From a virus: a stretch of 64,000 nt of DNA. Made by a program: the position numbers and the translations under genes. Below the pieces are notes generated by a model. It did no database searches. It had not been told where the DNA came from and saw only the letters and a list, made by a program, of their open reading frames with translations. The stretch's first letter is position 1, and every line of letters starts with the position of its first letter. The stretch spans positions 24,618 through 88,617 of the IMG/VR virus record IMGVR_UViG_3300035157_001159; one strand, 5' to 3'. Shown here piece by piece: positions 20,711 through 46,477 of this stretch.

Positions 20711-20718
20711 TATAAATA
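20711..20718 (+). promoter_or_regulatory. T4-type late promoter (TATAAATA)
   Basis: TATAAATA ends 24 nt before the ATG at 20743, in the only gap between the large beta-helix gene and the next small genes. Confidence 0.75.
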
Positions 20719-23226: not shown

Positions 23227-24363
23227 ATGGATGTATTAGTTTATAGTGCTCTTAATGAGCAGTCATCTCTTAAGAAGCAGATTGCTGCCAAGCAAAAAGA
23301 ATTATTTGATTTGAAGGCAGATGCTGGTGGTGGTGGTGCTGGTACTTATGAAGAAGCACCTGTTGAAGCATGGACTGCTGCTTGTAAGTGGTTATGTATG
23401 GATGGTTCTGGATGTAACTTAGAACGTTATCTGAACTGTTGCCCAGCTGATACCACCAAGTGGACTTGTATCTATGAAGGTGCAGATTGGACTGGTAATA
23501 CGAAGGTTTGTAACACTACTGAGAGTGGTAATTGTGGTAAAAACTGTACTTGGGTTGTTCCTTCTGGTGTAACTAGAGCTAGATTTCAATTGTGGGGTTC
23601 TGGTGGTGGAGCAAACCATGCATCTAGATGTTGTGGATGGACACACTTTGGATCTACTGGTGCTTATCTTTCAGTTATTATTCCAGTAACTGCTGGACAT
23701 TCTTATACAGTTTGTGCTGGTTGTGCTTATTGTTGTTGGGGTGGTTCTCAATCTGGTTCTAATAGAATACCAGGATGTCCAACATATGTTACTGGATGTG
23801 GATTATGTTATGTTTGTGCTCAAGGTGGTGATGGATCACAGGGTGAGTATTGGGGAACTAGATTAGGTGGAGAGAATCCTTGCTATCAACCATGTCATAA
23901 TGGTAGTTACAGAGAAGTTCGTGTTTGTCAGTATGGTGCATCAATATGTAAAAATAGTGGTGGATATAGTGGAAACTTCCCTGCAATGGCTGGTTCAATC
24001 TATGCTGGTACGTTAAATATAGATCCAGCAGCAGCAGATTTGGATGGATCGGGTACTCCTACACACACAAAACTAACTCCAGAGAACTTAATTTATGGTA
24101 TCCGTGGAATATGGGGTGGTTGGTGTCACCATACAAATAATTATGGTTGTAACTGCCATGCTCCAATATATGGATTTGAGAATACTTCACAATGTGTACA
24201 GGGATGGTCATCAAACTCATGTTGTGGTGGTGGATGGAGATATACTAGTGGATATCTACAAGTTCCTGGTGCTGGTGGATGGACTTCAAGTTCTTCTAGT
24301 GGTTGTCAGAACCATTGTGGAGACATGGGTAGATTTGGAATGGTTTGTATTCAGTGGAAGTAA
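23227..24363 (+). CDS. Cysteine-rich glycine-rich virion protein (copy 2)
   Basis: A 378-residue paralogue of the protein at 21363, with 32 cysteines. It has the same plan: N-terminal helix (LNEQSSLKKQIAAKQKELFDL), Gly linker, CTWVVPSGVTRARFQLWGSGGG, SRCCGW, AYLSVIIPVTAGHSYTVCAGCAYCC and a C-terminal PGAGGW...CGDMGRFGMVC. Many Cys positions align with copy 1, while others differ, so the twins have diverged in their Cys pattern. It is the last gene before a strong terminator that closes the late structural block. Confidence 0.75.
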   Translation: MDVLVYSALNEQSSLKKQIAAKQKELFDLKADAGGGGAGTYEEAPVEAWTAACKWLCMDGSGCNLERYLNCCPADTTKWTCIYEGADWTGNTKVCNTTESGNCGKNCTWVVPSGVTRARFQLWGSGGGANHASRCCGWTHFGSTGAYLSVIIPVTAGHSYTVCAGCAYCCWGGSQSGSNRIPGCPTYVTGCGLCYVCAQGGDGSQGEYWGTRLGGENPCYQPCHNGSYREVRVCQYGASICKNSGGYSGNFPAMAGSIYAGTLNIDPAAADLDGSGTPTHTKLTPENLIYGIRGIWGGWCHHTNNYGCNCHAPIYGFENTSQCVQGWSSNSCCGGGWRYTSGYLQVPGAGGWTSSSSSGCQNHCGDMGRFGMVCIQWK

Positions 24364-24385
24364 ACCAAAATCAACTTTTAATTTC

Positions 24386-24421
24386 AAAAATGGCGGAAAA
24401 AAAACTCCGCCATTTTTTTTG
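24386..24421 (+). terminator. Rho-independent terminator after the first structural block
   Basis: A perfect stem AATGGCGGA / TCCGCCATT with an 8-nt A-rich loop is followed by a run of eight T. It is 25 nt after the stop of the second Cys-rich gene and just upstream of a promoter, separating late fibre genes from the sugar operon. Confidence 0.85.
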
Positions 24422-24435
24422 TCTGTAGGGTCGAT
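24422..24435 (+). repeat. 14-nt element TCTGTAGGGTCGAT, copy 1
   Basis: This 14-mer occurs again, identically, at 35728-35741. In both places it directly follows a terminator hairpin, is followed by a small GTAA/TTAC dyad (here about 24440-24452), and precedes a TTGACT promoter. It may be a binding site for a phage or host regulator; no protein can be assigned. Confidence 0.7.
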
Positions 24436-24471
24436 AGGTAGTAATATCATTACATAACATTCTTTTCTTTG

Positions 24472-24500
24472 TTGACTATATATTAAAACAATGCTACAAT
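24472..24500 (+). promoter_or_regulatory. Sigma70-type promoter for the sugar operon
   Basis: TTGACT (24472-24477) and TACAAT (24495-24500) are separated by exactly 17 bp. The start codon of the first sugar gene is 25 nt downstream of the -10. This looks like an early/host-polymerase promoter, in contrast to the late elements of the structural block. Confidence 0.8.
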
Positions 24501-35074: not shown

Positions 35075-35670
35075 CTTGTTTTGAATTGTTTCCAACTAAA
35101 ATATGGGTGGAAGAATTAGACCTTGATACTTCAGTAATATTGGATAAGATTATTGATAATGGACAGCAAAGAAAAGATTTGGTTGGTATTGATGGTTTAT
35201 GTCAAGCATTAAAGGATAAAATATCTAAATGTGAAGATTTAGAATTGCCTGAGATGTATCTTCATTATTGGGTTAATTATAATAAACCAGGTGATTATAA
35301 TTATAGGCATCATCATACTGATAATGCTGTATTTCTTTCTGGTGTTTATTATCTTAAGGTTCCTGAAGATTCTGGTCGTATTATATTTTATGATCCTAGA
35401 GTACGTTCATTGGGTGCGATGTCGGATAATAAGTATTATGTGTATGAACCAGAAGTTAGTGTACAAGCACAGGCAGGTACGGTAGTTTATTTTCCTTCAT
35501 GGTTGGAACATGGGGTTGAGACTAATGAAAGTAATGAGGATAGGGTATCTATAGCGTTTAATCTTATTAATAAGGATGAGTTAGATAGGTATAAAGATAT
35601 GGAGAACTTTTGTTATAAGAATGCGATTGCTACTAGACCTGATGGTAGAGTGGAATATTTTGCCACCTGA
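35071..35670 (+). CDS. 2OG-Fe(II) oxygenase, TIGR02466-like (copy B)
   Basis: A 199-residue paralogue of the preceding gene with the same layout: HYWVNYNKPGDYNYRHHHTD, FLSGVYYLKVPEDSGRIIFYDPR, YFPSWLEHGVETN and RVSIAFN. It has a short extra C terminus (YKNAIATRPDGRVEYFAT). The pair clearly arose by tandem duplication. It is the last gene before a terminator/promoter cassette. Confidence 0.85.
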   Translation: MTCFELFPTKIWVEELDLDTSVILDKIIDNGQQRKDLVGIDGLCQALKDKISKCEDLELPEMYLHYWVNYNKPGDYNYRHHHTDNAVFLSGVYYLKVPEDSGRIIFYDPRVRSLGAMSDNKYYVYEPEVSVQAQAGTVVYFPSWLEHGVETNESNEDRVSIAFNLINKDELDRYKDMENFCYKNAIATRPDGRVEYFAT

Positions 35671-35694
35671 CCAAAATCGAACTTTTTTTCCCAT

Positions 35695-35725
35695 ATATCC
35701 CGATAAAAAATCGGGGTATTTTTTT
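35695..35725 (+). terminator. Rho-independent terminator
   Basis: A 10-bp stem centred on CCCGAT / ATCGGG with a 5-nt A loop and flanking A/T pairs is followed by seven T. It is 25 nt after the copy-B oxygenase stop and is the first part of the second intergenic cassette. Confidence 0.8.
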
Positions 35726-35727
35726 GC

Positions 35728-35741
35728 TCTGTAGGGTCGAT
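35728..35741 (+). repeat. 14-nt element TCTGTAGGGTCGAT, copy 2
   Basis: Identical to 24422-24435. It is followed immediately by the dyad ATGTAA-caaaa-TTACAT (about 35740-35756) and then by the TTGACT promoter at 35763. The same order of parts is present at 24.4 kb. Confidence 0.7.
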
Positions 35742-35762
35742 GTAACAAAATTACATATTAAT

Positions 35763-35791
35763 TTGACTAAATAGTTGAAATGTGTTAGTAT
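35763..35791 (+). promoter_or_regulatory. Sigma70-type promoter for the small-ORF block
   Basis: TTGACT (35763-35768) and TAGTAT (35786-35791) are 17 bp apart. A late-promoter-like CTAAATAG (35767-35774) overlaps the -35 and spacer, so the site could be used both early and late. The leader that follows is about 60 nt long before the first small ORF. Confidence 0.7.
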
Positions 35792-35819
35792 TAACACAAC
35801 GTTCATCTCCCGTATAGGA

Positions 35820-35847
35820 GACGCAAGTAAGCCGACTCGGAACGGAT
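35820..35847 (+). repeat. Leader motif copy 1 (GACGCAA..AAGCCGACT..GGAACGGAT)
   Basis: A 28-nt stretch ahead of the 57-residue ORF that recurs, with small changes, at 36014-36041 ahead of the DUF4278 gene. Just upstream, TCTCC-cgtata-GGAGA can form a small hairpin. It probably sets translation or RNA stability; function is unknown. Confidence 0.6.
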
Positions 35848-35857
35848 CGTTCATCTC

Positions 35858-36031
35858 ATGAACATTTTATTCGCTGCTGTTACATCAACCGCATTTACAG
35901 GTCTTTTGACTTGTGAACAAGCGAATGGTATTATCGAAAAGATAAAACCATCTTTTAGCCATAGATCTGAGATTGTGCAAATGATCAAGGATTCTAGTGA
36001 AGAATGTGATTGGGACGCAAAAGCCGACTAA
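35858..36031 (+). CDS. Small secreted/membrane-type peptide of cyanophages
   Basis: A 57-residue ORF: MNILFAAVTSTAFTGLLTCE... ending SSEECDWDAKAD. The first ~18 residues are hydrophobic and look like a signal sequence. The rest is soluble with two Cys. It is the first ORF after the early promoter. I have no function for it. The second leader motif overlaps its last codons. Confidence 0.6.
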   Translation: MNILFAAVTSTAFTGLLTCEQANGIIEKIKPSFSHRSEIVQMIKDSSEECDWDAKAD

Positions 36032-44486: not shown

Positions 44487-45380
44487 ATGTCTTTTGCATC
44501 TTTAAAGAAGCAATCCAAACTGGGCTCTCTTACCGCTAAACTGGTAAAAGAAGTCGAAAAGATGAGTAACACTGGCGGTCAAGGTGATGATCGTCTATGG
44601 AAATTAGAAGTAGACAAAGGCGGTAACGGTTATGCTGTTATTCGTTTTCTACCTGCACCAGATGGTGAAGATCTACCATTTGTAAAACTATACTCCCATG
44701 CCTTCCAAGGTCCTGGTGGTTGGTACATTGAAAACTCCCTTACTACTTTGGGGCAAAAAGATCCAGTATCTGAGTACAACTCACAACTCTGGAACAATGG
44801 AACAGACGCAGGTAAAGATACTGCTCGTAAGCAGAAGCGTAAGCTAACTTACATCAGCAATATCTACGTTGTAAAAGATCCAGCAAATCCTGAAAACGAA
44901 GGTAAGACATTCTTATACAAGTATGGTAAGAAGATCTTTGATAAACTAACTGCAGCAATGCAGCCTGAGTTTGAGGATGAGGAAGCAATCGATCCATTCG
45001 ATTTCTGGCAAGGTGCTAACTTCAAGTTGAAGGCAAAGAACGTTGCTGGTTATCGTAACTACGACTCTTCTGAGTTCGCTGCCACTAGTGCTTTACTAGA
45101 TGATGACGATGCGATGGAAGCAGTCTGGAAGAAGGAGCATTCCTTAGCAGAATTGGTTGCTGCCGATCAGTTCAAGTCATACGATGAACTCAAGACTCGT
45201 CTTGGTTATGTTCTTGGTAATAAGCAAGTTCGTAACGATGCTGAAACTGTAGAGCAAGAAGTTGAAGATGTGAGAGCATCTGCTCCTGTTGCTGAGACAG
45301 TAGAATCTGTATCTAAAGCATCTGCTTCAGATGATGACGATGACGCATTATCATACTTTGCTAAATTAGCGGAAAGTTAA
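44487..45380 (+). CDS. 32: gp32 single-stranded DNA-binding protein
   Basis: A 297-residue gp32. The basic N terminus FASLKKQSKLGSLTAKL (LAST-like, for cooperativity), the core IRFLPAPDGEDLPFVKLYSHAFQG, KRKLTYISNIYVVKDPANPENEGK, LYKYGKKIFDKL and FDFWQGANFKLKAKNVAGYRNYDSSEF are typical. The C terminus ends in the acidic SDDDDDALSYFAKLAES, the partner-binding tail. T4's zinc ligands (three Cys and a His) are missing: no Cys at all is present. It has its own promoter, a repeat-bearing leader and a strong terminator downstream. Confidence 0.93.
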   Translation: MSFASLKKQSKLGSLTAKLVKEVEKMSNTGGQGDDRLWKLEVDKGGNGYAVIRFLPAPDGEDLPFVKLYSHAFQGPGGWYIENSLTTLGQKDPVSEYNSQLWNNGTDAGKDTARKQKRKLTYISNIYVVKDPANPENEGKTFLYKYGKKIFDKLTAAMQPEFEDEEAIDPFDFWQGANFKLKAKNVAGYRNYDSSEFAATSALLDDDDAMEAVWKKEHSLAELVAADQFKSYDELKTRLGYVLGNKQVRNDAETVEQEVEDVRASAPVAETVESVSKASASDDDDDALSYFAKLAES

Positions 45381-45505
45381 TGAAAATCAAGCCTCTTAAA
45401 CATTGTCGATTATCCCAGATGAAGTTCTTCTACTGGGATCCGAAAGATGATCCAAGAGAGCCTGAATACTGGGAAGACTCACCTTCGGGTGGGTCTTTTT
45501 TATGA
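45380..45505 (+). CDS. Small ORF coupled to gp32
   Basis: A 41-codon ORF whose ATG overlaps the gp32 TAA (TAATG): MKIKPLKHCRLSQMKFFYWD..., ending SPSGGSFL. Its last 9 codons are the terminator hairpin and U-run themselves. The sequence (KFFYWDPKDDPREPEYWED) looks protein-like. Without homologues to compare, it may be real or just leader to the terminator. Confidence 0.45.
   Translation: MKIKPLKHCRLSQMKFFYWDPKDDPREPEYWEDSPSGGSFL
45476..45502 (+). terminator. UUCG-tetraloop terminator after gp32
   Basis: GACTCACC-TTCG-GGTGGGTC, an 8-bp stem with one G-T pair and the extra-stable CUUCGG tetraloop, then six T. It lies within the small ORF after gp32 and closes the early/replication transcript. 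Confidence 0.9.
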
Positions 45506-45610
45506 TAAGACGAATAAATTTTTTAAAGGATCATCTCCCAATTTATCCTTCAAGGTGTTAACTAGTTTTTCGTATTTCTTTGGAATTATTAACATTTTAG
45601 TCTTTTTCAT
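45500..45610 (-). CDS. Possible 36-residue ORF on minus strand
   Basis: On the minus strand from 45610: MKKTKMLIIPKKYEKLVNTL..., ending NLFVLS. Composition is protein-like (Lys-rich amphipathic helix), but there is no good Shine-Dalgarno. It could be the last gene of the minus-strand late block, though a candidate terminator lies before it. Very tentative. Confidence 0.3.
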   Translation of the reverse strand: MKKTKMLIIPKKYEKLVNTLKDKLGDDPLKNLFVLS

Positions 45611-45660
45611 GACAGAAAACTTTAATTAAGATTATTTATTGACCAGTTTTTTCATTTTAA

Positions 45661-45701
45661 AAAACCTATATTGAAAGCAATATGAGTTGAATATAGGTTT
45701 T
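45661..45701. terminator. Bidirectional hairpin between gp32 and gp53
   Basis: AAAACCTATATT / AATATAGGTTTT form a perfect 12-bp stem with a 17-nt loop, flanked by T-runs to the right and A-runs to the left, between convergent genes. It probably ends minus-strand transcription from gp53 and backs up the UUCG terminator. The 45506-45748 interval has nothing else clear apart from the small minus ORF. Confidence 0.6.
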
Positions 45702-45748
45702 GTAGGTTTTTTGTAGATTTTGTGTTCTTTTGAACACATTACTTAATA

Positions 45749-46477
45749 TTAATTAACTAAAGTAGTATTTTCTGTTGTAATTAAATTTTTGCTAATATAT
45801 TGAGAATTTCTATCATAGAACATAATTCTTCTAAATTCCTCTACGAATTGTTGTAGATATACTGGTTTTAGTACATTAATTTGTCGTTTCTCTTCATTTA
45901 AACGATCTTCATATTCATAATTACTAATTCCAACAGCGATTGTATTTAATAAATCGGATGCTGATCCACCTAGAGTATTTTGTGATAATGGTAGAGATCC
46001 ACTCTCTCTTATTGCTTTCCATTGAGTACCTACAGGAAATTGACTTCCTGGACCATTTATTTTAAAAGTCTCATCCACAGTTAATCCTGCTGGTAGGATT
46101 AGTCTATTCCATTGATCTCTTACTTCTACTGTTTCATAATGGTGTAAAGCATTTAATTCTTCACCATATTTTTCTGAAGCATATTCATATAGAAAATGAT
46201 TGGATAGTGGCCATTGATCTCTTATATTTGTTATTCCAGCAGATAAAATAACAACATAATCTAATTCTGAATTATTATATAATTCTTTTGCCACAGTATC
46301 TGGTCTTTCACCTTCATAAATTTGATACTTATTATATAAGGATACATTGTCAGATATTGAATTAAGTATTTTAATTCTTCTGAATATATTCTTAGCAATA
46401 ACATATTCTTGTGAAGATCTCTTCTCAATTAATCTTGAAGATACTGCTACGTTTGGTAACTCTCTAAAATATCCCAT
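45749..46477 (-). CDS. 53: gp53 baseplate wedge protein
   Basis: A 242-residue protein. YNKYQIYEGERPDTVAKELYNNSELDYVVILSAGITNIRDQWPLS is the gp53/LysM-like core found in T4 gp53 (IKGSPRPEELANAIYGNPQLYWVLLMCNDNYDPYYGWITS, given here in part), and the C-terminal VEEFRRIMFYDRNSQYI matches the gp53 end. The wedge protein gp53 joins wedges into the hexagonal baseplate. Its start overlaps the gp48 stop. Confidence 0.85.
   Translation of the reverse strand: MGYFRELPNVAVSSRLIEKRSSQEYVIAKNIFRRIKILNSISDNVSLYNKYQIYEGERPDTVAKELYNNSELDYVVILSAGITNIRDQWPLSNHFLYEYASEKYGEELNALHHYETVEVRDQWNRLILPAGLTVDETFKINGPGSQFPVGTQWKAIRESGSLPLSQNTLGGSASDLLNTIAVGISNYEYEDRLNEEKRQINVLKPVYLQQFVEEFRRIMFYDRNSQYISKNLITTENTTLVN

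Follow-up and report, generated by a model that had tools for sequence, protein, structure and literature searches.

A candidate two-box terminator module fused to sigma-70-type promoters at gene-block boundaries of a T4-like cyanophage

At two sites in the window, the 64,000-nucleotide stretch of viral DNA that was analysed, a left box, a terminator hairpin, an identical 14-mer (the right box), a GTAA/TTAC dyad and a sigma-70-type promoter follow one another in the same order, as the initial annotation had described (Table 1). The pair raises the question of whether the conserved boxes, which flank hairpins of different sequence, serve the terminator or the promoter. Little is understood of how T4-like cyanophages, viruses that abound in the ocean, control their transcription, and a recognisable boundary module would offer testable points for early/late insulation and aid operon prediction in metagenomic phage DNA. 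With moderate confidence, we propose that both sites are copies of one Kyanoviridae terminator module fused to sigma-70-type promoters, an arrangement that would insulate the adjoining blocks.

Anatomy and genomic setting of the two sites

A GC-containing hairpin followed by a T-tract, as in intrinsic (Rho-independent) terminators, is present at both sites, and each was picked up by a terminator scan. The site-1 hairpin folds with −16.7 kcal/mol (z −5.5 against shuffles), and that of site 2 with −12.6 kcal/mol (z −1.9), just moderately above shuffles. The promoters that follow are assigned to the sigma-70 class from consensus alone. The exact 14-mer occurs in two places only, as judged by searches of the 64 kb window and of the whole 88,617-b record, and counts allowing 3 mismatches gave no excess over control counts.

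Table 1. Positions of features at the two sites (window numbering)
Feature	Position	Strand	Sequence or detail
Site 1, upstream gene (ORF)	23227-24363	+	stop codon TAA 24361-24363
Site 1, left box	24364-24379	+	ACCAAAATCAACTTTT; directly 3' of stop codon TAA
Site 1, predicted intrinsic terminator (hairpin + T-tract)	24386-24420	+	hairpin 24386-24417; terminator scan, fold, arm covariation
Site 1, right box (14-mer)	24422-24435	+	TCTGTAGGGTCGAT
Site 1, dyad	24441-24453	+	GTAATATCATTAC; GTA-N7-TAC
Site 1, predicted sigma-70-type promoter	24472-24477 and 24495-24500	+	TTGACT, 17 nt, TACAAT; TG precedes −10
Site 2, left box	35670-35686	+	ACCAAAATCGAACTTTT; shares one base with stop codon TGA 35668-35670
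Site 2, predicted intrinsic terminator (hairpin + T-tract)	35695-35726	+	hairpin 35695-35719; scan, fold
Site 2, right box (14-mer)	35728-35741	+	TCTGTAGGGTCGAT; identical to site 1
Site 2, dyad	35742-35754	+	GTAACAAAATTAC; 7-nt spacer versus 8 nt in NtcA-type box
Site 2, predicted sigma-70-type promoter	35763-35768 and 35786-35791	+	TTGACT, 17 nt, TAGTAT; layout also in related loci
Site 2, palindrome spanning −10	35781-35798	+	TGTGTTAGTATTAACACA
Predicted glutamine riboswitch aptamer	35798-35848	+	RF01739; 35.3 bits, gathering score 35
57-aa ORF 3' of riboswitch	35858-36031	+	phrog_504, function unknown

The block that ends at site 1 contains T4-type late promoters (TATAAATA), located at 20711 and 22478; the first genes of the next block encode a heptosyltransferase-like protein and a carbamoyltransferase. 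Site 1 thereby parts late-promoter genes from a block with a sigma-70-type promoter, in agreement with the earlier idea that the phage has a control element where blocks meet. At site 2, a 2OG-Fe(II) oxygenase gene lies upstream, and the 57-aa ORF and then a ThyX-type thymidylate synthase lie downstream. The phage relatives matched are T4-like cyanophages (Kyanoviridae). Gene order around both sites resembles that of P-SSM2 (Salacisavirus), a phage of Prochlorococcus NATL1A, where the cassette is present at site 2, at 245026-245162, and the site-1 counterpart is a different terminator. In that counterpart (L149 10090-10290; 235115-235315) hairpin and promoter appear to overlap (CCCTTGACTTATTCGGTTGAGGGTTTTATAAT), with TTGACT-17-TATAAT inside the terminator. 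Pfam identified gp32 (44487-45380) and gp53 (45749-46477); the convergent junction between them (45380-45749) holds no boxed copy in this genome, and most relatives have one there.

The boxed terminator module in related cyanophages

In related loci the module runs from a left box at the stop codon through a hairpin with an A-rich loop, whose arms are variable but paired, to a T-tract and a right box with the core CTGTAGGGT. In an IMG/VR scan, at least 120 loci matched the 14-mer, many of them with stop codon, left box, hairpin, T-tract and 14-mer together; as in all the collection scans, contigs overlap, near-identical copies were removed just in part, and on short contigs the ends of genes were assigned mechanically. 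The initial annotation had named absence of the 14-mer from other terminator/promoter junctions of related phages as evidence against its proposal, and the 14-mer is present at many of them.

Two independent anchors, the left box alone and the T-tract with the right box, were chosen so that the counts avoid circularity. From the left box alone, the exact core CTGTAGGGT was recovered after hairpin and T-tract in 32 of 56 loci, where shuffles predict 0.1, so the shared arrangement exceeds chance; from the T-tract and right box, a left box with at most 4 mismatches was found in 50/92 loci (0.4 expected from shuffles). Other right-box sequences occupy 20 of the 56 left-box loci, and the right box is therefore not obligatory. 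In 85 of 100 related copies the left box opens within one base of the stop codon (−1 to +1 nt), and nine distinct upstream gene families are represented in this class. The distance from stop codon to stem is similar in other terminators of these genomes (median 23 nt), and spacing alone is therefore not special.

Within the module the hairpin and the boxes behave differently. Among 42 non-redundant copies the two hairpin arms take 33 and 32 distinct sequences, and a copy's own arms pair at a mean of −13.5 kcal/mol versus −7.1 kcal/mol when swapped, none of 1000 swaps being as good. The left box carries 1.6 bits per column, a figure partly biased since most copies were let in with at most 4 left-box mismatches, versus 0.85-0.87 in the stem columns. 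The 1.98 bits of the right box are circular, the copies having been chosen by that box, and the unbiased figures are those of the left-box-anchored scans. Cassettes that face gp53 were chosen by the right box only; in pairs of them with less than 40% of gp53 C-terminal residues in common, the left core is still 70-78% shared. No covariation between left and right box was detected in the 42 copies. An outer stem between the left box (ATCGAC) and the right box (GTCGAT) folds in both window sites, yet was rejected as a conserved helix (own pairs −5.17 versus swapped −5.46 kcal/mol, 921 of 1000 swaps as good). A bidirectional terminator, suggested by the convergence with gp53, is not claimed: many copies have no minus-strand T-run (e.g. 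L282), and site 2 folds only weakly on the minus strand.

The module is rare. In six genomes, boxed copies number one or two among 13-42 predicted terminators, and the consensus of the gp53-facing form is found in 62 of 50,697 phage records, at one place per record, all of them cyanophages. In cellular genomes totalling 257 Gb, the 17-mer of T-tract plus box, TTTTTTGTCTGTAGGGT, was counted 23 times, and about 30 are expected by chance (2 × 257e9 / 4^17). The restriction of matches to cyanophages and the chance-level count in cells indicate that the boxes are a phage feature. A host origin was rejected on the same 17-mer count, the sole cyanobacterial match (L458) lying outside such a cassette.

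Copies at the same site in different phages resemble each other more than the two sites of one genome do. Site-1 copies in four other records are 84-95% identical to that of the window, most site-2 copies in other records are 75-99% identical, and the two sites inside one genome are 70-79% identical. Two further contigs likewise hold a pair of copies, separated by 11.3 and 11.9 kb, and in AG-345-F15 the separation is 9.5 kb. Copies thus group by site and not by genome, having been inherited separately with the boxes kept independently; recent duplication or gene conversion was rejected on these identities, and the initial annotation was right that this is not a simple recent duplication.

Candidate functions of the boxes

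A regulator bound at the 14-mer had been suggested earlier; read as an operator, the 14-mer would let such a regulator, of phage or host, control the adjacent promoter, and at both window sites it does lie upstream of the −35 element. The distance to that element, however, is 36 nt at site 1, 21 nt at site 2 and 0 nt in L018 and L052, where the two abut. In related loci the right box may be followed by a sigma-70 promoter, by a late promoter (L101; likewise, after a variant box, L131 and L399), directly by a start codon (L085) or by a convergent gp53 gene; the commonest site of the module is the convergent junction facing gp53, often 3' of gp32, and many copies of the 14-mer at convergent junctions have no promoter at all. 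Some promoters of the same family lack the 14-mer. Because the spacing of the 14-mer to the −35 element varies and many copies are promoterless, we consider a promoter operator highly improbable; as judged by its predicted context, the 14-mer belongs to the stop signal and not to the promoter.

On our preferred reading, that of a terminator module joined to a promoter, RNA polymerase arriving from the upstream block would halt at the T-tract, and the promoter just 3' of the module would restart transcription for the next block, which would keep adjoining blocks insulated; the RNA restarted at site 2 would open with a glutamine riboswitch. We infer from these sequence elements that termination and initiation probably occur here in infected cells; the boxes most likely play an accessory part in termination or in forming the 3' end. 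The left box would give the RNA a fixed segment from stop codon to hairpin, where a termination, antitermination or RNA-processing factor might act, and the right box would be DNA just beyond the point of release, where it may serve as a pause or roadblock element. That the boxes are conserved in sequence while the hairpin between them varies freely suggests that a specific factor acts at chosen terminators. A tentative extension, to which we give a low but appreciable probability, is that one or two of the block-boundary terminators in every T4-like cyanophage carry a dedicated two-box signal recognised by a specific factor, of phage or host; if so, these terminators would be stop/go points under regulation, in contrast to the others predicted in the genome.

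The left box and hairpin could instead form the end of a small RNA derived from the 3'-UTR, whose conserved stretch pairs with target mRNAs. The anatomy, a conserved unpaired stretch and then a hairpin with a U-tail, fits such an RNA, as does the lack of covariation between the boxes; no Rfam small-RNA family, however, was found at gathering score, and the right box, beyond the terminator, would be left unexplained, so we regard a small RNA as distinctly unlikely.

The nearest known arrangement is the PeSL (promoter-early stem-loop) cassette of T4-type phages (Arbiol 2010, Comeau 2014, as cited in PMC4503421). As in PeSLs so described, a terminator hairpin and then a sigma-70-type promoter lie at block boundaries of a T4-like phage, at both window sites. 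By the same description the window module differs in that (i) sequence-conserved boxes flank its hairpin, (ii) boxed copies are few and not the many found in hyperplastic regions, and (iii) most relatives carry it without a promoter, at a convergent junction. The boxes and hairpin might nevertheless persist, as PeSLs would, as homology for module exchange, with transcription control secondary. The cassette follows many unrelated upstream gene families and precedes several downstream ones, genes have been gained and lost directly upstream of the left box (e.g. at the gp53 junction), and shuffling is reported for other T4-type phages in work cited in PMC4503421. The authors of PMC4503421, on the other hand, note a low PeSL density in S-PM2. 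We consider shuffling unlikely here, because the copies are few, descend by site with no recent exchange between sites, and include no hybrid junction among 182 cassettes.

A conserved terminator position 3' of gene 32 in T4-like phages has already been reported (Nolan 2006, PMC1524935), and many cyanophages carry the module 3' of gp32 or at the junction from gp32 to gp53; the two copies of this genome, in contrast, sit elsewhere, and the parts of that paper used here report the position of the terminator and not conserved flanking boxes. No such boxes turned up in the literature searched, where PeSL cassettes were covered through their citation in PMC4503421.

The dyad and the site-2 promoter

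GTA-N8-TAC is the NtcA consensus used for predicted cyanophage NtcA binding sites (Sullivan 2010, PMC3037559), and both window dyads depart from it with their N7 spacing. We collected 156 promoters with a CGTTCA leader, found independently of the terminator. Exactly 22 nt upstream of the −35 element, GTA-N8-TAC is present in 78 of the 105 promoters without GTAGGGT[C/T]GAT (47/60 without a recognised box and 31/45 with another box type; fewer than one expected anywhere) and in 0 of the 51 with it, 28 of which have GTA-N7-TAC and the remainder of which have decayed further. Relatives of the site-2 promoter thus resemble the predicted NtcA sites in having the consensus at a fixed distance from −35, whereas the window version, with its 7-nt spacer, looks decayed. 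For the site-2 dyad the best reading is an NtcA-type box that has decayed and that may ancestrally have bound NtcA. The site-1 dyad is also GTA-N7-TAC, but is part of a different promoter.

The site-2 promoter drives a predicted glutamine riboswitch leader, a feature that the initial annotation had overlooked. The RF01739 match covers the full model, starts about where the site-2 transcript should begin and barely exceeds the gathering score; it differs from the known riboswitch in this marginal score and in preceding a phage ORF of unknown function. In related loci the riboswitch core is present in 80 of 105 distinct leaders. Together, an NtcA-type box at a fixed distance and glutamine-riboswitch leaders suggest that a single family of phage promoters receives two inputs on nitrogen status.

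In the riboswitch-linked promoters the −10 element is nested in a perfect palindrome whose sequence differs between copies (TGTGTTA..TAACACA, GGTATGCTAACATACC, AGGTCTATAATAGACCT and others), and a stem of at least 5 pairs is found in 39 of 45 distinct −10 regions versus about 6 in shuffles. Palindromy without a fixed sequence suggests a structure rather than a single operator. A manA RNA (RF01745, 188.7 bits; L165 586-780) lies a few hundred bases 3' of a glutamine riboswitch in a related cyanophage contig.
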